Source: a virus
Length of the DNA stretch: 34,723 nt
Virus record (IMG/VR): IMGVR_UViG_3300021963_000378
Span: 1 to 34,723 of that record
Strand: one strand, 5' to 3'
Below the pieces are notes generated by a model that made no database searches, was not told the DNA's origin, and saw nothing but the letters and a program-made list of their open reading frames with translations. A program made the translations under genes and the position numbers. Shown here piece after piece: positions 2 through 34,417 of the stretch. The number at the start of each line of letters is the position of its first letter. Position 1 is the first letter of the stretch.

Positions 2-2797
2 GACCCTAGCCTTAAGGCAACCAGCTACACAGCCGTCATTGATTCAAGCAACAACGGAACAACTACTCTTGTATTGAATTACAACACAACAGCAATGACG
101 CTTTCTGACAAGCTTCAATTCACTATTGATGAGTTTGCAGAACGTATCCTTCCAGGAGAAGCCCTACAAGACCCTGTACAGAAGATGCGCGTGTCTACTC
201 CTCAGTCCCTTATTGATACCGACTTTGAATACGGCACACAGCCTACTAAATGGGAAGTGTTAAGCGCTGTAAATAACAAGCCTTGCCAGTACTACGATAT
301 TCAAGACCCAGTTGCTCAACCTTCAGGTGGTGCACGTACTATCACAGCAGTCACAGGAACTGGCTCTTCTCGTCTAGTAACTGTTGTTACCTCTTCAGCA
401 CACGGCCTTGTAGTAGGAGATAAGTTCTTTATCCAAGACACAAATGACCCGTATGCTAATGGCTGGTTCATGGTTCGCTCTGTAGCAACAACTACAGTTT
501 CTAACGATACATTTACATACTACTCACGAGCTAATATCCTTACAAACGGCTCTATTCTAGACGCTACTCAAACGTTTATCTATAAAGCGTTTGACTACTC
601 ATCTTCAACAATTCCAGTATCTGTTTCAGCAGGTGCCGCATTTACTAACTCAGGCACAACAGTTACCGCAACAACAACTAACGCTCACGGACTTGTTCCT
701 GGATGTATGATTTATGTAAAGGGAACAACTGCCTCAACTAACCCACCTAATGGTGCTTGGGAAGTTGCAACAACTCCTACAGCTAACACATTTACTTTCT
801 CTGTAGTAGATACCCCAACAGGTACGATTACATCGCTAGCAACCTCTCTTACACCACGTACAGGTTCTCAATCTATTCACCGCGCATTTGATGGTGGTGT
901 TAAGTTTACAACTGGTATCTCTGCACCTGGTTCTCGCATTGTTCGTCAAACACGTAAGTACTTCCGTTACCAATCAGGTAAGGGTATTCAGTTCTCAACA
1001 GGCTCAATGATGAAGCCAGTGTTTGCTGTTGACTCAGTCACTTCTTCTTCTAACGTTGTAACAGTTACTACTCACTATGAGCATTTCCTTGGTGTCGGAG
1101 CAACCATACTTGTATCTGGTTCAACAGATGCTGCGTACAACGGAACTTGGACAGTAGCCTCTGTACCAACTCCTCTATCATTTACTTACGTTGCAAGCTC
1201 TGTTCCTGCAACAACTCCTGCACCAGGATGGCCTATCAACATAGCGCCTACAAACTGGTACGGTGCTCAAGTTCGTATTGGTATGTTTGATGACCAGAAC
1301 GGTATGTTCTTTGAGTATGATGGGCAAAACTTTAACGCTGTACGCCGCGACTCAACAGAACAAATTTCTGGAGAAGTGGCTACAACGCAAGGCTCACAGA
1401 CCGTTACAGGAACAGGAACAGCATTTTCATCTCAGCTAACCCCTGGAGATAAAATTGTTATTCGTGGTACAACGTACTCAGTAGAGTCTATTGCTAGCGA
1501 TACTTCTATGTTTATCTTCCCTGAGTACCGTGGCCCGTCTATCACAAACGGCGGTATTATAAGCAAGACTGTTGACTTTAAAGTGTCTCAGTCCCAATTT
1601 AATATTGACCGTCTTGACGGAACTGGCCCATCAGGTATGGTTCTCAATCTTTCTAAGATGCAGATGTTCTACATTGACTACGCTTGGTATGGTGCTGGAG
1701 CAATTCGCTTTGGTGTTAAGGACGAGTTTGGTGAAGTTATCTATGTACACCGCATGACTCACGCTAACGTTAAGAACGCTGCATACATGCGTTCAGGTAA
1801 CTTGCCTGCACGATATGAAGCATCTAACGACACACCACGCACAGTTTTAACAGCGACTGCTGCTAGCTCTGCATCATCTATATCAGTTGCAAGTACCGCT
1901 GACTTTCCATCAGCTGGAACACTATTCCTAGCAGCCGCAGGTGCATCGGGCGCAATTGAATACGTATCTTACACAGGAAAAACTGCAACAACCTTTACAG
2001 GTTTAACTCGTGGTCTTACTAACGTAGTTATTAACCCAAATACAGGTGCAACAGGCGGAGCTTCTGCAGCAACTACCTTTACATACTCTGCAACTGCTCC
2101 TATCCCAGTACGCCTCTATTCACGTCACGTAGCAACAGGAACTAGTCACTGGGGTTCTGCAGTTATCATGGACGGTCGCTTTGATGAAGACAAGGCTTAC
2201 ATCTTCCAGACAGGTATGGCTTCTTCTCTTGTAATCCCTCGCGGTAGCACAACTACCCGTTACGGACTTCTAAGCCTTCGTGTAGCCCCTTCTGTTGATA
2301 ACGGTATGGTTGGTGTGTTTGGCCAACGTGAACTTATTAACCGTATGCAGTTAACACTTAAGCAGATGGACGTACTTGCGCAGTCAACAGCGGCAACTGC
2401 TGGTAACCCAGGTATCTTCCTTATTGAGGTTATCTTGAATGGTAAAGTGAACACCACAACAGGTAACACTTGGCAGAACGTTGGTGGTTCAAGCCTGTCA
2501 CAGGTTCAGTATCACGCCGCTAACACCACTATCACAGGTGGTGAGCCAATCCTTTCCTACTTCGTTAGTACAGTTACTGGTGAAGCTGCTGTGGTTTCTC
2601 AAGACCTATCTACTGTCCGAGAACTTGGTAACTCTGTTATTGCTGGTGGCACAACAACTGTTTCATCTACAGATGGTACTAACGTATTCCCTGATGGTCC
2701 AGACATGGTAACCATCTGCGTACGTAACCTCAGCGGTGGGTCAGTAACTTCAGCAAGCCTTAACGGACGTTTATCCTGGACTGAAGCACAAGCATAA
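2..2797 (+). CDS. Large phage structural protein, 5' end outside window
   Basis: The reading frame is open from base 2, so the gene almost certainly begins upstream; the first start-like codon inside (TTG at 74) has no ribosome site. The visible 931 residues hold several beta-rich modules in series. Three look alike at about nt 335-535, 640-830 and 1035-1220, each with a T/V-rich strand, a pattern like HGLxxGD, and then NGxW/F-x-V. A different GTGTxF-x-x-x-L-x-x-GDxI module lies at about 1363-1545 and another beta module at about 1840-2030. I recognise no enzyme motif. Such repetitive modules are typical of virion surface or fibre-associated proteins. The next gene follows after a short AAGGAGG-containing gap, so the two are probably co-expressed. 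Its role as a virion protein is inferred from composition and position; the exact function is unknown. Confidence 0.75.
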   Translation, partial: DPSLKATSYTAVIDSSNNGTTTLVLNYNTTAMTLSDKLQFTIDEFAERILPGEALQDPVQKMRVSTPQSLIDTDFEYGTQPTKWEVLSAVNNKPCQYYDIQDPVAQPSGGARTITAVTGTGSSRLVTVVTSSAHGLVVGDKFFIQDTNDPYANGWFMVRSVATTTVSNDTFTYYSRANILTNGSILDATQTFIYKAFDYSSSTIPVSVSAGAAFTNSGTTVTATTTNAHGLVPGCMIYVKGTTASTNPPNGAWEVATTPTANTFTFSVVDTPTGTITSLATSLTPRTGSQSIHRAFDGGVKFTTGISAPGSRIVRQTRKYFRYQSGKGIQFSTGSMMKPVFAVDSVTSSSNVVTVTTHYEHFLGVGATILVSGSTDAAYNGTWTVASVPTPLSFTYVASSVPATTPAPGWPINIAPTNWYGAQVRIGMFDDQNGMFFEYDGQNFNAVRRDSTEQISGEVATTQGSQTVTGTGTAFSSQLTPGDKIVIRGTTYSVESIASDTSMFIFPEYRGPSITNGGIISKTVDFKVSQSQFNIDRLDGTGPSGMVLNLSKMQMFYIDYAWYGAGAIRFGVKDEFGEVIYVHRMTHANVKNAAYMRSGNLPARYEASNDTPRTVLTATAASSASSISVASTADFPSAGTLFLAAAGASGAIEYVSYTGKTATTFTGLTRGLTNVVINPNTGATGGASAATTFTYSATAPIPVRLYSRHVATGTSHWGSAVIMDGRFDEDKAYIFQTGMASSLVIPRGSTTTRYGLLSLRVAPSVDNGMVGVFGQRELINRMQLTLKQMDVLAQSTAATAGNPGIFLIEVILNGKVNTTTGNTWQNVGGSSLSQVQYHAANTTITGGEPILSYFVSTVTGEAAVVSQDLSTVRELGNSVIAGGTTTVSSTDGTNVFPDGPDMVTICVRNLSGGSVTSASLNGRLSWTEAQA

Positions 2798-11936: not shown

Positions 11937-12153
11937 GGTTGAAAAGCCAGTAACTCTGGCTATCAAGGTCCCAGGCAAGCCTGCACGGGAAACTCACAAA
12001 ATTTCTAAGAACAAAAAAGGTGAGGTCATTGTTGACCATACCAACCGTGATAAAGGCAAGTACGACAAGATTAACCTGACAAAAAAAGCTGGGTCTAAGA
12101 CAATTGCTCAAGGAGTAAAAGCGACTAAAGATTGGCATAAAACAAATGGCTAA
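11899..12153 (+). CDS. Lys-rich 84-residue protein, start uncertain
   Basis: The frame encodes a basic protein with a strand pattern VTLAIKVPGKPARETHKISKN, then GEVIVDHTNR and a Lys/Thr/Gly-rich end. The only starts are GTG 11899 or 11908, neither with a good ribosome site, and both lie inside the Cys-peptide gene in another frame. From about 11926 onward it looks coding. A +1 shift at the A6 run would instead join the CxCGNCGC head to this body. The family is unknown; its basic nature suggests nucleic-acid contact (inference). Confidence 0.6.
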   Translation: MATVAAAKKTQAKVEKPVTLAIKVPGKPARETHKISKNKKGEVIVDHTNRDKGKYDKINLTKKAGSKTIAQGVKATKDWHKTNG

Positions 12154-12280
12154 AGGACCTTGTTGGGATGGATACGAGCAAAAAGGTATGAAGATGAAGA
12201 ACGGCAAGTCCGTTCCTAATTGTGTACCTGTGGGTTCAGTTAAGAAAAAAACTGTAAAGAAGAAAGCGAAGGCAAAGTAA
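12146..12280 (+). CDS. 44-residue basic protein, KGPCWDGYE type
   Basis: ATG 12146 overlaps the preceding stop; TAA shares its last base with the next ATG (TAATG). The protein starts AKGPCWDGYEQKGMK and has PNCVPVG followed by a Lys-rich tail. The CWDGYE ... VPNCVP layout is a small-protein type I recall from environmental phage genomes, with two cysteines about 20 residues apart. Function is unknown. Confidence 0.7.
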   Translation: MAKGPCWDGYEQKGMKMKNGKSVPNCVPVGSVKKKTVKKKAKAK

Positions 12281-12483
12281 TGGCTACAGCAAAGAAAGCT
12301 GCTGCAAAACCAAAGTCTAAGGTTAATGAGGCTGGAAACTACACTAAACCTGGTATGCGCAAAGCAAAGTTTAATAAGATTAAAGCTGGCTCTAAGGGTG
12401 GAGACCCAGGAGAATGGTCTGCCCGTAAAGCTCAACTTCTTGCTGCTGAGTATAAGAAGGCAGGCGGAGGGTACAAGGACTAA
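12280..12483 (+). CDS. 67-residue basic protein with GWSARKAQ-type motif
   Basis: Start ATG 12280 shares a base with the upstream TAA. Residues after a Lys/Ala-rich head read VNEAGNYTKPGMRK, then KIKAGSKGGDPGEWSARKAQLLAAEYKKAGGGY. The segment G-G-x-PG-x-WSARKAQ-x-x-A-x-x-YKK-x-GGGY is a recognisable short module found in phage and large-virus proteins of unknown role (I believe a DUF5872-like family, from memory). High Lys content suggests binding to packaged DNA, but this is not shown. Confidence 0.75.
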   Translation: MATAKKAAAKPKSKVNEAGNYTKPGMRKAKFNKIKAGSKGGDPGEWSARKAQLLAAEYKKAGGGYKD

Positions 12484-12484
12484 A

Positions 12485-12721
12485 ATGGCTAAAGCTAAGT
12501 CACAGCAGTCATTAAGTAAGTGGGGCGCTGAAAAGTGGCGCACTTCTGATGGCAAAGAATCTAAAGGTAAAAAGCGTTACCTGCCAGAAAAGGCGTGGAA
12601 TTCTTTATCTTCTTCAGAGAAAGCTGCAACTAATAAAGCAAAAGCAAAAGGCAATAAAGAAGGAAAGCAGTTCGTAGCTCAACCAAAGAAGATAGCTAAA
12701 AAAACCTCTAACTACAGATAG
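12485..12721 (+). CDS. 78-residue basic protein with KWGAEKWRT motif
   Basis: The correct start is most likely ATG 12485, right after the upstream TAA; the frame is open further upstream but overlaps the previous gene completely there. The protein reads SLSKWGAEKWRTSDGK, then GKKRYLPEKAW, SSSEKAATNKAKAKG and QPKKIAKKTSNYR. This is a known compact layout of hypothetical basic viral proteins (I recall it as DUF6321-like). The Lys-rich nature and neighbours suggest a nucleic-acid-binding virion role (inference). Confidence 0.75.
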   Translation: MAKAKSQQSLSKWGAEKWRTSDGKESKGKKRYLPEKAWNSLSSSEKAATNKAKAKGNKEGKQFVAQPKKIAKKTSNYR

Positions 12722-12729
12722 GAAATAAG

Positions 12730-12945
12730 ATGTGTGCAGCATGTGGATGTGGAAAGAAAAAGGGCGAGCCAGGTTTTGGCAAAGGCCCAAAGTCCAAGTC
12801 AAAAAAGGCCTGTACTTGCGGTACCTGTAAGGCATGTAAATCAAAGAAGTCACCTTTAAAAGGTAAGCAAAGTAAGCTTGATGCAGACAAAGACGGCAAG
12901 CTAGAAGGCTCTGACTTTGCTGCCCTACGAAAGAAGAAGAAGTAG
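12730..12945 (+). CDS. Cys-rich protein with EF-hand/dockerin-like loop
   Basis: ATG 12730 follows AGGAAAT. The 71 residues comprise a head MCAACGCGKKK, a second cysteine group CTCGTCKAC, and a C-terminal calcium-loop-like element LDADKDGKLEGSDF, with Asp at loop positions 1, 3 and 5, Gly at 6 and Asp at 12, as in dockerin-type EF loops. It ends in Lys5-like RKKKK. It could bind a soft metal at the cysteines and calcium at the loop. The stop TAG overlaps the next GTG. The role is unknown. Confidence 0.75.
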   Translation: MCAACGCGKKKGEPGFGKGPKSKSKKACTCGTCKACKSKKSPLKGKQSKLDADKDGKLEGSDFAALRKKKK

Positions 12946-13073
12946 TGTGCGCAACCTGTGGCTGTATGAAGCCAGCAGATAAGCACGGTATGAAGACCCT
13001 TGCTGCAGCAAACAAGAAGTTTGATAAAAAACCCAAAGGAAAAAAAGAAAAGCCAAAGGCAAAAAAGAAGTAA
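12945..13073 (+). CDS. 42-residue Cys-head/Lys-tail protein
   Basis: GTG 12945 shares a base with the upstream TAG. The head MCATCGCMKP matches the head of the upstream gene (MCAACGCGKK) almost exactly; after a short helix comes a Lys-rich tail. It is the last gene before a strong terminator, so it closes the micro-gene operon. It is likely a paralogue of the upstream gene that has lost the second cysteine group and the EF-like loop. Confidence 0.65.
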   Translation: MCATCGCMKPADKHGMKTLAAANKKFDKKPKGKKEKPKAKKK

Positions 13074-29386: not shown

Positions 29387-29980
29387 ATGAAAATCGCTGT
29401 TTTTTCAGAAGACGACTTGGATGTATCACTTGGAATTGATGAACTCCTCACGAAGTACTCTGAGCAATCGCCCGAAGTACTTTTTCCAGTAAAGACAAAC
29501 TACGACGACTTCTCTCAAAGCATTATACGAAAGTGCTTAGAGAACAAAGTTAAAGTGACTGCTTTCTTAAGTGATGCCACAGATGTAGGTCACATCATCA
29601 AACAAGTTGACGCATTTGTCGTTTGCGAAGACCCAGTAAGTGACTTGTTAAGGCAACTTTCTGCTGGGGATGCTATCGGTGTAGTTTGGACTGATAGCCT
29701 TAATGACCACTTGATACTCCACACGGTTGAAGACCTTGCGTTGGACACCTGGGATATAACTGACGGAATGGACCCGATTGAATTGGACGACAACCCCTTC
29801 TTGGGTATGGACCCAGATGAACTGCATGATGGTATGCATAAGGCTCTAGGAGTATTCGTAGACATGATGAGCGCCTTTATAGCCAGCACGGTTATGGAGT
29901 CACTAGGTCAAGCCGTTGTGCAGCACCTGAACGAACAGATAGACAAAAAGGACATTTCACCGTTTGATGATGAGGAGTAG
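29387..29980 (+). CDS. Acidic phage protein of unknown function
   Basis: This 197-residue protein has an alternating strand/helix start (MKIAVFSEDDL, VKVTAFLSDATDVGHIIKQVDAFVVCEDPVSDLLRQLSAGDAIGVVW) that suggests a small Rossmann-like domain, followed by an acidic linker (DGMDPIELDDNPFLGMDPDELHDGM) and a hydrophobic helix (ALGVFVDMMSAFIASTVM). No catalytic motif is recognised. AGGAGCACA precedes ATG 29387. It lies between the holin candidate and the replication genes and may be an early regulator; this is speculation. Confidence 0.7.
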   Translation: MKIAVFSEDDLDVSLGIDELLTKYSEQSPEVLFPVKTNYDDFSQSIIRKCLENKVKVTAFLSDATDVGHIIKQVDAFVVCEDPVSDLLRQLSAGDAIGVVWTDSLNDHLILHTVEDLALDTWDITDGMDPIELDDNPFLGMDPDELHDGMHKALGVFVDMMSAFIASTVMESLGQAVVQHLNEQIDKKDISPFDDEE

Positions 29981-29989
29981 GCTAAGCCT

Positions 29990-30973
29990 GTGTACATCCC
30001 GTCAGAAGCTTATTCAGCAAAGATAACGGATTTCCAGTTCCGTCTCTTTGCCATATTGTGCCGTTCTGCGGGCCCTGGAGGGCTCGTAGAGACCACAGTA
30101 GCCCAGCTTTGTGTAGAGACTGGCAAAGCAAGCGACAAGACCATCCGTAGCGCCTTGCAAGGCCTTGAGGCATCGGGGCTTATTGAGACTTCTCAGACCA
30201 AGCGTGCTAACGGTTATCAGGGACGGAAAAAGATTACGGTAAAAAATTACCAACAGGAAGAACAGAAGTTGGTAGAAAATTACCGCACCTCACATGACTA
30301 TGTGACTAATAGCCACCCTAGCTATCTAGCTACTAGACCATTAGTACCTAATAGCCATAGTAGTAAAGCTAGTTATAAATTAAAAGAATCTGAAACCGAA
30401 GGTTTCACAAAAGAGATAAGGGTTCCTATGAGAAAATGGGAAGATGATGGAGACTCTCTGGCAGGCTTTGGACTCGTTGAACCAAAAGATGCCCCGCAGC
30501 CGAAGATACGCAAGAGCGACCCTAAAACCAGAGGCAAGCGACCAGAGCACGAATGGACAGCAATGGACGTTGCTGCAGAGTTTAGTTACCAAGTGGGCCG
30601 TAAATACCCGTTACTTCCAGGTACCGTCTCCGTCAAATCGCTATCAGGAGCAATCCGAAAGTTCCGCTCACAGTACGGAACTACCCCGCTTATAGAGCTT
30701 GAACTTCTTCGGTTGTTCATGCAGGATGAGCGTAACTTCAAAGATATTGGGGATGAGGCTCCTCACCTTTACAAAAAGTACCTTGCCTCCTTCGGCACGA
30801 AGATGAACCAAGCAAGAGAAAATCTCGGATTAAACAAAGTTACTGCTAGGATTGAGACAACGCCAGCATCTGGTACTCTCACTGCCAGTGACGGTCGTGT
30901 ATTCCAAAACTCTTTGAGTGGACGTGCACAGCTAGAGCGACATGAAAACCGATTGAAAGGCAAGGAAAACTAA
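29990..30973 (+). CDS. Replication initiator-like winged-helix protein
   Basis: This 327-residue protein starts at GTG 29990. Residues ~10-80 form a winged helix (FQFRLFAILCRSAGPGG, TTVAQLCVETGKASDKTIRSALQGLEASGLIE, then a K-R-rich wing) as in phage initiators. Residues ~83-140 are a low-complexity linker rich in Asn, Ser, Tyr and Lys. A C-terminal domain follows (WTAMDVAAEFSYQVGRKYPLLPG, IRKFRSQYGTTPLIELELLRLF). Helicase-loader and helicase genes follow downstream, fitting a lambda O-like role of binding the origin and recruiting them. The DNA encoding the linker contains iteron-like repeats. Confidence 0.75.
   Translation: MYIPSEAYSAKITDFQFRLFAILCRSAGPGGLVETTVAQLCVETGKASDKTIRSALQGLEASGLIETSQTKRANGYQGRKKITVKNYQQEEQKLVENYRTSHDYVTNSHPSYLATRPLVPNSHSSKASYKLKESETEGFTKEIRVPMRKWEDDGDSLAGFGLVEPKDAPQPKIRKSDPKTRGKRPEHEWTAMDVAAEFSYQVGRKYPLLPGTVSVKSLSGAIRKFRSQYGTTPLIELELLRLFMQDERNFKDIGDEAPHLYKKYLASFGTKMNQARENLGLNKVTARIETTPASGTLTASDGRVFQNSLSGRAQLERHENRLKGKEN
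30238..30407 (+). repeat. Candidate origin: iterons, AT-rich stretch and hairpin
   Basis: Inside the initiator gene. Two near-identical palindromic 14-mers, GGTAAAAAATTACC (30238-30251) and GGTAGAAAATTACC (30271-30284), start 33 bp apart, about three helical turns. The 10-mer CTAATAGCCA recurs at 30306-30315 and 30348-30357, with CTAGCTA twice between them (30318, 30326). An AT-rich segment (about 30359-30390) follows, then a perfect 7-bp hairpin TGAAACC-GAA-GGTTTCA (30391-30407). This matches the general lambda ori layout, but function is unproven. Confidence 0.55.
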
Positions 30974-30975
30974 AC

Positions 30976-31284
30976 GTGGCAAAAAAGATTACAAAAACTT
31001 TTACAGCAACACTCGTCCTAAACACCGAACAAGGTGGCGCATGGTTGGCTAACGTCAGCCTTCTTACTCCAATGCTTGATGATGAAAACCCAAACTCAAT
31101 GCAACCAGCAGAAGCTGTAAGTGCAGAAGCAGCATGGAAGAACGCATCAGCAGGTAAGCGTTGGATTAAATCACAAGTTCTAGCACTAACACCTCGTAAG
31201 AGTGTGAAGTTGGAACCAACAAAACTTGATAAGACAACAGAAAAACCTACAGCTTTTGTAGGAAAACTGGAGTTCAAAGCCTAA
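30976..31284 (+). CDS. Small basic protein in replication module, unknown
   Basis: This 102-residue protein starts at GTG 30976 three bases after the initiator stop. It begins with a beta-hairpin-like TFTATLVLNTEQGGAWLANVSLL, has a central Ala/Glu helix (PAEAVSAEAAWKNASAGKRWIKSQV) and ends with a basic strand region (KSVKLEP, AFVGKLEFK). It ends in a TAATG overlap with the next gene. I do not recognise the family. Position suggests an accessory replication or DNA-binding role (inference). Confidence 0.7.
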   Translation: MAKKITKTFTATLVLNTEQGGAWLANVSLLTPMLDDENPNSMQPAEAVSAEAAWKNASAGKRWIKSQVLALTPRKSVKLEPTKLDKTTEKPTAFVGKLEFKA

Positions 31285-31442: not shown

Positions 31443-31598
31443 TTGGAAGAAGAAGAACTAGAGCAAGCCCTAATGAGATTATTTGCGTTAGGGCTTGTTT
31501 CAGTTGATTACGATGAAGATTTAACTCCTCGGTTTGGAATAACGGATGAGGGCCGAGTAAAGTTAGAAAAAGAATTGGGGGGCAATACAGATGTATGA
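31443..31598 (+). CDS. 51-residue winged-helix-like protein, TTG start
   Basis: The frame starts at TTG 31443, immediately after a TAA, and ends at TGA 31596, overlapping the helicase-loader start by eight bases. It reads ALMRLFALGLVSVDYDED then TPRFGITDEGRVKLEKE, a pattern like the last helix and wing of a winged-helix domain. It may be a mini-regulator or loader partner. ATG 31473 is an alternative start. Confidence 0.6.
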   Translation: MEEEELEQALMRLFALGLVSVDYDEDLTPRFGITDEGRVKLEKELGGNTDV

Positions 31599-32313
31599 CA
31601 TAAATACTTTATCTCCATTAAAAAAGCATTGGTTACTACGCACTTCAAACATTCCTCGCAGATTTATTGGTTTAGAACCAAGTGACATTACTGAGAAAGT
31701 AGGGTCATTTCCAGGAGAGTTATCTTCTTGGGTTGATGATGTGACTTCAGGTCATGTTATTAAAAGCATTGGAAACATTGGTGTAAATGGCGTAGGGCTT
31801 GTCTTTGATGGCGGCCCTGGTCTTGGTAAGACAACACACGCTGTTGTTGCAGCGATGGAGATTGTCCGTAACTTGCCAGATGATGATGCTTTAGCAAGCA
31901 AGCTTCTAGGGTTAAACTCAACTGAGTATGGGTTAAAGTTTCGCCCTGTTTACTATATGACCTATCCAGAGTTTCTTTCTCGTAAGAAGTCAACCTTTGA
32001 TATGGATGGCGAAGATAAACGCGAGATGAGTTATGAGTTAGATGGATTTCACGGTCGTTGCCGTTTTGACTGGCTAAACGTAAGAGTATTAATACTTGAT
32101 GATTTAGGTAAAGAATACGGTTCTAAGTATGACGACACCTCATTTGATGAGATTCTAAGACTGCGCTACGACAAGGGATTGCCTACAATTGTTACTACCA
32201 ATGTTCGTTTAGAAAATTGGGAATCTCAGTACAGCGAAGCAATGGCAAGTTTTGCTAACGAAGCGTTTATAAGAGTGCCTATACTAGGTTCAGACCTAAG
32301 AGGCGCCCAATGA
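31591..32313 (+). CDS. DnaC/IstB-like AAA+ helicase loader
   Basis: This 240-residue protein has Walker A GGPGLGKTT with Lys80, Walker B VLILDDLG with Asp170 and Asp171, and sensor-1-like IVTTNV, in the AAA+ arrangement of DnaC and phage helicase loaders. The N-terminal ~65 residues (NIPRRFIGLEPSDI) match the short pre-AAA segment often seen in DnaC-type proteins. It would open and load the DnaB-like ring encoded at 33164 onto origin DNA, using ATP, in the host cytoplasm. The stop overlaps the next gene (ATGA). Confidence 0.9.
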   Translation: MYDINTLSPLKKHWLLRTSNIPRRFIGLEPSDITEKVGSFPGELSSWVDDVTSGHVIKSIGNIGVNGVGLVFDGGPGLGKTTHAVVAAMEIVRNLPDDDALASKLLGLNSTEYGLKFRPVYYMTYPEFLSRKKSTFDMDGEDKREMSYELDGFHGRCRFDWLNVRVLILDDLGKEYGSKYDDTSFDEILRLRYDKGLPTIVTTNVRLENWESQYSEAMASFANEAFIRVPILGSDLRGAQ

Positions 32314-32615
32314 AAGGACCGAGCATGAGTAAAGAATGGATGACTGTTCAACAGTTCATCTCTGCTCAGGGTGTTGGTATCTTTGAGGTTGAGCTAGAGA
32401 CTAAGTCTAAGCAAACCCGTTGCAACTGCCCAGTGTGGAGTAAGAAAAGCACTTGCAAGCACACCTCCTTTGTAAATAACAAGATTAAAAACACAGGTCA
32501 CTACTCAATCAACGTCCCTAACTCAGTGCCAGAAGAGTGGGCATACGAGGCTAGCGAAGACCCTAAGAAGTTCCGTGAGTTTGTAGTTAACTACGCGACG
32601 ATAGAAGTTATATGA
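32310..32615 (+). CDS. Small SWIM zinc-finger-like protein
   Basis: This 101-residue protein has Cys38-x-Cys40-x8-Cys49-x-His51, the CxC...CxH spacing of SWIM zinc fingers (RCNCPVWSKKSTCKH). A beta strand FEVELETKSKQT leads into it, as in other SWIM domains, and a helix ends it. SWIM domains usually contact DNA or proteins. A start at ATG 32325 (AAAGGA upstream) is also possible. It overlaps its neighbours on both sides by ATGA, within the loader-helicase set. Confidence 0.8.
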   Translation: MKGPSMSKEWMTVQQFISAQGVGIFEVELETKSKQTRCNCPVWSKKSTCKHTSFVNNKIKNTGHYSINVPNSVPEEWAYEASEDPKKFREFVVNYATIEVI

Positions 32616-33163: not shown

Positions 33164-34417
33164 TTGGCAGCAGATAACGAACACAGACTAGTTAGCAAGG
33201 TAATCAAGGAACGTGAGATTACCCCCGTACTTCAACGTGGCATAACAGATGTCTGGTTCTTAGATGATGACAACAAGAAAGTTTGGGCTTTTTTACGCAA
33301 GCACTACAGTGAGTACAGCGAAGTGCCCACGGCAACAACTGTTCTTGACCATTACCCAAACTACAAAGTTCTCAATGTTGAAGACAGCATGGACTACTTG
33401 TTGGACACGATGGTGGATTTTCGCCGTCGTATGCTTACACGACAGGGTTTAGAAACTGCTGTTGAGCAGTTACAGGATAACAATCACAATGCAGCAATCC
33501 TTGCTATGGAACAAACCGTTTCCAAGGTTAATGAGCAAGGAGTACTAGGTACTCACGAGATTGATTTAACTAAGAACACAGAAGAGCGTTACAAGGAATA
33601 TCAATCAATTCAAAATCAAGAGTTCTTAGGTATACCTACAGGGTTTAAAGATATTGACGAAGCAACTGCAGGTTTACAGGGCGGTCAGTTAGTAACCATA
33701 ATTGCTCCACCTAAAACAGGTAAATCCCAGGTTGCATTGCAAGTGGCTATTAACATTCACAAACTAGGTAAAGTACCTATGTTTCAATCTTTTGAGATGA
33801 ACAACCACGAACAACAGCAGCGTCACGACGCAATGCGCTCTCACATTGACCACGGACGACTACGTCGTGGAAAGCTTTTACCAAAAGAAGAGTCTCGTTA
33901 CATTGACATGTTGAATGCTATGGAGACAGAACACCCCTTTCATCTAGTAGATGCAGTAAACGGTATTACGGTCTCTGCTTTGTCAGCAAAGATTGAGCAG
34001 TTAAAACCAGACATTGTTTTTGTAGATGGTGTTTATTTAATGCTTGATGATTTGACTGGTGAGATGAATACTCCTCAAGCAATCACTAACATTACTCGTG
34101 CACTAAAGCGCTTAGCGCAGAAGATTGACAAGCCGATTGTTATTACCACTCAGACTTTACTATGGAAGATGCGTGCTGGAAAAGTTACTGCTGACTCTAT
34201 TGGTTACTCATCCTCATTCTTTCAAGACTCAGATGTTATCTTGGGTTTAGAGCCTGTTGAAGAAGACGACTCAATTCGTTTATTAAAAGTTGTTGCTTCC
34301 CGTAACTGTCCACCAAAAGAAACCTCACTAACTTGGAAGTGGGAAACAGGATGTTTCCACGATGAGTCAGCAATGATGAGTTGTGAGTTCTGTTCTAACT
34401 GGGATAATAATGGTTGA
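33164..34417 (+). CDS. DnaB-like replicative helicase
   Basis: This 417-residue protein starts at TTG 33164 directly after the zinc-ribbon stop. Residues ~1-120 form the N-terminal helical domain. The RecA-like motor begins with LGIPTGFKDIDEATAGLQGGQL, then Walker A APPKTGKSQ (Lys187), MFQSFEMN (motif 1a), PDIVFVDGVYLM (Walker B-like) and PIVITTQ. It moves along single-stranded DNA as a hexamer, loaded by the DnaC-like protein. SASRNC-like VVASRNCPPKE near the end is also typical of RecA-type helicases. The final 30 residues contain a CEFC pair of unknown use. Confidence 0.92.
   Translation: MAADNEHRLVSKVIKEREITPVLQRGITDVWFLDDDNKKVWAFLRKHYSEYSEVPTATTVLDHYPNYKVLNVEDSMDYLLDTMVDFRRRMLTRQGLETAVEQLQDNNHNAAILAMEQTVSKVNEQGVLGTHEIDLTKNTEERYKEYQSIQNQEFLGIPTGFKDIDEATAGLQGGQLVTIIAPPKTGKSQVALQVAINIHKLGKVPMFQSFEMNNHEQQQRHDAMRSHIDHGRLRRGKLLPKEESRYIDMLNAMETEHPFHLVDAVNGITVSALSAKIEQLKPDIVFVDGVYLMLDDLTGEMNTPQAITNITRALKRLAQKIDKPIVITTQTLLWKMRAGKVTADSIGYSSSFFQDSDVILGLEPVEEDDSIRLLKVVASRNCPPKETSLTWKWETGCFHDESAMMSCEFCSNWDNNG

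Follow-up and report, generated by a model that had tools for sequence, protein, structure and literature searches.

Genes at the locus

The window, that is the whole stretch of DNA analysed here, is a 34.7-kb virus record (34,723 nt; IMG/VR IMGVR_UViG_3300021963_000378) of an uncultured phage. It encodes a protein matching phrog_270 (replication initiation, E=1.6e-7), followed downstream by a DnaC-like and a DnaB-like gene (Table 1). Three scans of viral contigs yielded 133 distinct full-length relatives of this initiator, window included. Replication-initiation families were matched by 38/38 aligned relatives, the best match again being phrog_270 (E=6.8e-15). A tblastn search with the initiator against 50,697 phage records (INPHARED) returned zero matches, and no relatives were confirmed in bacterial genome contigs. 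The nearest Pfam family is HTH_36 (PF13730), below its cut-off; the RepA_N domain (PF06970) was not among the Pfam matches with E up to 1.

The domain structure was taken from a single AF2 model, the C-terminal half of which is of modest confidence (pTM 0.35). Residues 89–163 have pLDDT values below 50 (AlphaFold) and form a disordered stretch, while the C-terminal part is conserved among relatives. The N-terminal fold resembles the RepA initiator domain (residues 1–87; 4pt7_B with Z 10.2, 4pql_B with Z 10.1), although many other winged helices reach similar Z. Among the nearest folds are plasmid initiators and a large number of transcription regulators.

The original prediction had placed a DnaC/DnaB-like pair downstream of the initiator as the machinery to be loaded. 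Considering relatives with a locus long enough, a DnaC-like gene was found downstream in 96/97 and a DnaB-like gene in 25/25, in agreement with this arrangement; helicase loading would be the corresponding function. Other genes of the locus are retained as well. A 197-aa gene upstream of the initiator (29387–29980) is kept in 117/117 eligible relatives and has no significant family match in Pfam or phrog. A 102-aa ORF directly 3' of the initiator (30976–31284) is present in 111/118 relatives and has no Pfam match. The small protein encoded at 32310–32615, between the loader and helicase genes, matches a SWIM zinc finger (PF04434) barely over the cut-off. By helicase and baseplate the closest cultured phages are Streptomyces BRock and LuckySocke (31–34% identity). 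The gene that we examined there at the corresponding position is unrelated to the window initiator, and no relatedness was detectable between the 197-aa gene and its positional counterpart in LuckySocke, gene 104.

Table 1. Position of the features in the window
Feature	Position	Strand	Basis or remark
Initiator gene	29990..30973	+	GTG start, 327 aa
Initiator domains	residues 1-88, 89-163, 164-327		winged-helix N-terminal domain, disordered linker, C-terminal part; AF2 model
Recognition helix (H49-61) with the residues preceding it, codons 46-61	30125..30172	+	mutual-information scan; model
Iteron 1, palindrome GGTAAAAAATTACC	30238..30251	.	repeat search, relatives and chance test
Iteron 2, palindrome GGTAGAAAATTACC	30271..30284	.	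half-site adjoins constant GCACCTCAC flank
Second palindrome TCACATGACTATGTGA	30290..30305	.	other lineages have TGACTATAAGTCA, TGGCTATAAGCCA or CACCTGATAAGGTG here
Palindrome ATTAGTACCTAAT	30340..30352	.	nearly invariant core TTAGTACCTAA; one distant lineage has CTAGTACCTAG
AT-rich putative DNA unwinding element	30370..30394	.	AATTAAAAGA at 30378-30387 nearly invariant
Hairpin TGAAACC-GAA-GGTTTCA	30391..30407	.	7-bp stem; compensatory change in relatives
DnaC-like helicase loader	31591..32313	+	phrog_50 E=2.9e-24
DnaB-like replicative helicase	33164..34417	+	PF03796 E=7.6e-28; phrog_19 E=8.3e-58

Repeats and AT-rich DNA in the linker-coding region

The region that holds the repeats, the AT-rich DNA and the hairpin codes for residues 83–139 of the initiator, and the elements lie where the original prediction had placed them. 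The two palindromic 14-mers were found 33 bp apart with a single mismatch between them. Their consensus has no further match in the window at fewer than 2 mismatches, and allowing up to 2 mismatches gives 5 sites in the window where 0.71 are expected, so that these near-identical repeats stand above chance.

Other repeats described in the original prediction are present, but have no evident functional role. The 10-mer CTAATAGCCA occurs at 30306–30315 and 30348–30357, 42 bp apart, and two CTAGCTA units are located at 30318–30324 and 30326–30332. The first 10-mer copy and the CTAGCTA units are unconserved even in close relatives and were discarded as elements; the second 10-mer copy is part of an invariant element. 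The suggestion that the repeats are spaced near whole helical turns did not hold. Spacings in relatives are 24, 30, 33 or 42 bp, all of them multiples of three, and 24 bp does not correspond to a whole turn.

At the place of the iterons relatives carry GGTAAAAAATTACC (the type found in the window), direct repeats of AATTACCGCAC, GGACATTTGTGTCC together with GGACGCTAATGTCC, or other sets. The core TTAGTACCTAATAG...AATTAAAAGA occurs once per locus, inside the initiator ORF, in all 106 loci checked, and no copies of the origin outside initiator genes (e.g. in satellites) were found among these loci. Two initiators of 429 aa (L141, 3001–4281; L146, 2337–3617) contain an HNH-endonuclease-like insert (CxxC ... 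H ... H ... C) in the linker at the usual iteron position. Both have an aberrant recognition helix, ANEKTVRG, and retain the right half of the origin.

The predicted AT-rich stretch could be located adjoining the repeats. Its 25-mer is the least stable of the initiator gene and, taking the window as a whole, is among the 0.14% least stable. In 133/133 genes the least stable 40-mer lies at most 60 bp from AATTAAA, beside the iterons.

Selection on the linker DNA

We determined synonymous codon identity, i.e. the share of same-amino-acid pairs using the same codon, over 55 non-redundant relatives. Identity is 74–98%, mostly above 85%, over about 30242–30395, compared with 38–77% over most of the remaining initiator gene. 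It peaks in the linker at 0.93–0.98, with gene background on either side, and shows a lower shoulder of 68–82% at 30404–30450. Exactly at the hairpin it drops to background, because the sequence changes there while pairing is retained. A second, smaller peak is found right of the hairpin at 30419–30450 (0.77–0.82 observed, 0.62 expected). The linker DNA is thus under selection beyond protein coding, and the comparison of relatives proposed along with the original prediction, namely whether this DNA is kept despite protein divergence, was clearly positive.

Repeats arising by chance in an AT-rich low-complexity linker might be thought of, since the linker is disordered and the 10-mer and CTAGCTA copies are unconserved. 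Synonymous conservation and hairpin covariation over 55–133 relatives, however, rule chance out for iterons, AT-rich element and hairpin alike, and we give this explanation practically no weight.

The iteron half-site changes with the recognition helix

Among relatives the iteron half-site (last half-site) switches at the same place between TTACC, TGTCC and TGACC. We performed a mutual-information scan of protein columns outside the linker against the half-site. The best predictors were residues 48, 46, 49 and 47, the start of recognition helix 49–61 in the predicted winged helix; residue 54 also scored high. S48 together with D49 accompanies TTACC in 60/60 distinct cases and TGTCC in 0/36. 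TTACC is found with K-x-S-D-[KR]-T-[VI]-R, TGTCC with V-[HTN]-[mostly E or V]-[KR]-TVRR, and TGACC with VGEKTVRR or PSDSTVRR. One relative (L122) has flanks like the TGTCC class, yet carries TTACC and SDKTVRR.

A tree of the C-terminal part requires the half-site to have changed 13 times and the helix 12 times. Independent pairs agree, although only 2 of the 12 lie on well supported branches. Iteron sequence and recognition helix change together across relatives. The repeats and the N-terminal domain are adjacent in the DNA, so that co-inheritance as a swapped block could give part of the correlation. Judging from these sequence comparisons, the iterons are likely bound by the N-terminal domain of the initiator.

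Such binding might also serve regulation. The repeats could be an intragenic operator by which the winged-helix protein represses or times its own operon, the region not being an origin; they are palindromic and operator-like, and transcription regulators are numerous among the nearest winged-helix folds. A promoter-like site was, however, not found around the region, and an operator leaves the invariant AT-rich element and the covarying hairpin (see below) unexplained, as it does the interdomain position in a replication-initiation protein (38/38) beside loader and helicase genes. We consider an operator improbable.

The hairpin is preserved as a structure

The perfect 7-bp hairpin, merely listed in the original prediction, turned out to be among its best supported parts. 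Over 52 distinct regions 22 different stems were observed. Arms from the same region are 100% paired, whereas arms taken from different relatives are 40% paired. The mean stem is 7.0 bp, compared with 3.67 bp (sd 0.13) in synonymous shuffles. The stem has only 4 pairs in L130 and 5 in the most distant lineage.

Considered as RNA the stems are weak (mean -6.2 kcal/mol, 44% GC). A first count of G-U pairs hinted at a wobble asymmetry towards the minus strand, which vanished against base composition; once composition is considered neither strand favours G-U pairs. The lack of a G-U preference together with the weak RNA stems points to the hairpin acting as DNA.

We nevertheless weighed two readings at the level of RNA. 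The hairpin could be an intrinsic terminator of leftward (antisense) transcription, its stem and the T-rich complement of AATTAAAAGA halting RNA polymerase before the iterons or leaving a primer 3' end. It indeed scored terminator-like on the minus strand, and the T-rich side is always minus-strand 3' of the hairpin, where the first 8 bases include 4.2 T on average. This reading is at odds with the weak RNA stems, the lack of a G-U preference beyond composition and the gap of a few bases that separates stem and T run. It would account for the hairpin alone and not for the other elements, and is compatible with an origin; we regard it as unlikely. Alternatively the synonymous conservation could be due to an element of the initiator mRNA that acts as a regulatory structure or as a signal for pausing or frameshifting, covarying stems being typical of RNA. 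There were zero matches to Rfam families, however, the stems are perfect Watson-Crick without use of G-U, and the reading frame is intact throughout. In addition conservation is highest in AT-rich DNA and in short palindromes, and the iteron sequence tracks a DNA-recognition helix. We consider an RNA element very improbable.

Tentatively, and at slightly less than even odds, we propose that the hairpin is an active part of the origin which forms on melting and is recognised by its shape and not by its sequence, and that at the same time the family provides a readable code linking residues 46–49 to the half-sites, which has switched repeatedly. In this case the hairpin may serve helicase loading or priming, or it may block antisense transcription.

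A probable replication origin inside the initiator gene

Support for an origin comes from the anatomy of the region, the selection on its DNA, the coupling of repeat and helix, the pairing of the hairpin and the gene neighbourhood. We interpret 30238–30407 as the origin from which this phage lineage replicates, nested within its own initiator gene, with a probability of roughly 0.86. The lambda-like origin embedded in the initiator gene that had been postulated is thus well supported, as far as synonymous conservation, repeat/helix coupling and neighbouring genes can indicate it.

The cumulative GC skew of the window has its minimum near 29.0–29.5 kb. GC skew, put forward earlier as a check, agrees weakly. 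It steps up at the site in 8/8 long relatives, at the 87th–98th percentile of positions, but this is rarely the largest step, and we do not use it as proof of an origin. Elsewhere in the window, positions 12001–13000 show a strong AT skew (+0.32) plus positive GC skew in otherwise even surroundings.

In the mechanism that we envisage, the winged-helix N-terminal domain would bind the palindromic iterons via its recognition helix, probably with one dimer per palindrome. In some relatives direct AATTACC repeats take the place of the full palindromes, so binding as a dimer may not apply to the whole family. The assembled initiator complex would melt the adjoining AT-rich DNA, and the C-terminal part together with the DnaC-like loader would place the phage DnaB-like helicase on the exposed strand. 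Strand separation would allow the hairpin, which bounds the melted region on its far side, to form, and it would most likely mark or hold the single strand for loading or priming.

This assigns a putative origin to a common, uncultured phage lineage; its initiator is without a tblastn match in the phage reference collection. It also provides a natural series of more than 100 initiator-origin pairs with co-changing repeat and recognition helix. As the two change together, specificity can be tested by swaps. The right-hand inverted repeat is of interest since it is preserved here as structure and not as sequence, which makes its function testable; lambda also has one, which the origin descriptions compared leave out.

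Comparison with known origins

Like lambda ori, the putative origin lies within the initiator gene, between the parts that encode the N-terminal and the C-terminal domain, and the two have the order of palindromic iterons, A/T-rich DNA and an inverted repeat on the right in common. The lambda inverted repeat is imperfect and 28 bp long (GTCAGAGAATTC TGGC GAATCCTCTGAC, lambda ori sequence). As in lambdoid origins, iterons stand beside an A+T-rich region, with direct repeats in some relatives of the present family, and the repeat sequence varies between related phages. The kinship of the initiator with O is less certain, since the O-like profiles that match 36/38 relatives (best E=1.2e-8) and the window protein (E=8e-4) do so only distantly. 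A scan of viral contigs with lambda O returned near-identical copies alone.

The differences are as follows. Lambda uses its P loader and the host DnaB, whereas a DnaC-like loader (phrog_50) and a phage DnaB are encoded here. The number of iterons is two or three, unlike lambda, and there is an additional invariant palindrome, TTAGTACCTAA. The hairpin occurs in essentially all relatives, in contrast to a patchy distribution among lambdoids: of 12 lambdoid O genes, lambda, ES18, SEN22 and phiEt88 have a significant inverted repeat and P22 a borderline one, while in the remaining genes it is weak, absent or not significant, so we dismissed the idea of a hairpin universal in lambdoids. The site would work like lambda ori, yet it is not a lambdoid member: its initiator has no tblastn match in the 50,697 phage records, and a DnaC-like loader stands in for the P-type one.

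Origins inside initiator genes have been described in other systems. SPP1 oriL lies inside gene 38, with gp39 as loader and gp40 as DnaB-type helicase (PMC6316719). By its description oriL resembles the present site in its intragenic repeats and AT-rich element, and also in that the phage brings its own loader and DnaB-type helicase (PMC6316719); SPP1 differs in its direct repeats and a second origin (oriR), whereas we find one site per locus. In the RepA_N plasmids pSK41 and pSK1 the ori is inside rep, with Rep boxes mid-gene and the linker encoded by ori DNA (PMC5703833). In pPR9 a natural swap of the N-terminal domain and ori has occurred, and the N-terminal HTH is pfam13730 (PMC5703833). 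The winged-helix N-terminal fold is shared with the present initiator (4pt7/4pql, Z about 10, residues 1–87). The pSK41 C-terminal domain binds host DnaG, while here genes for a phage loader and helicase follow. Intragenic origins as a kind are already known; what is new in detail is this lineage, together with a hairpin that nearly all its members share and one additional invariant palindrome.
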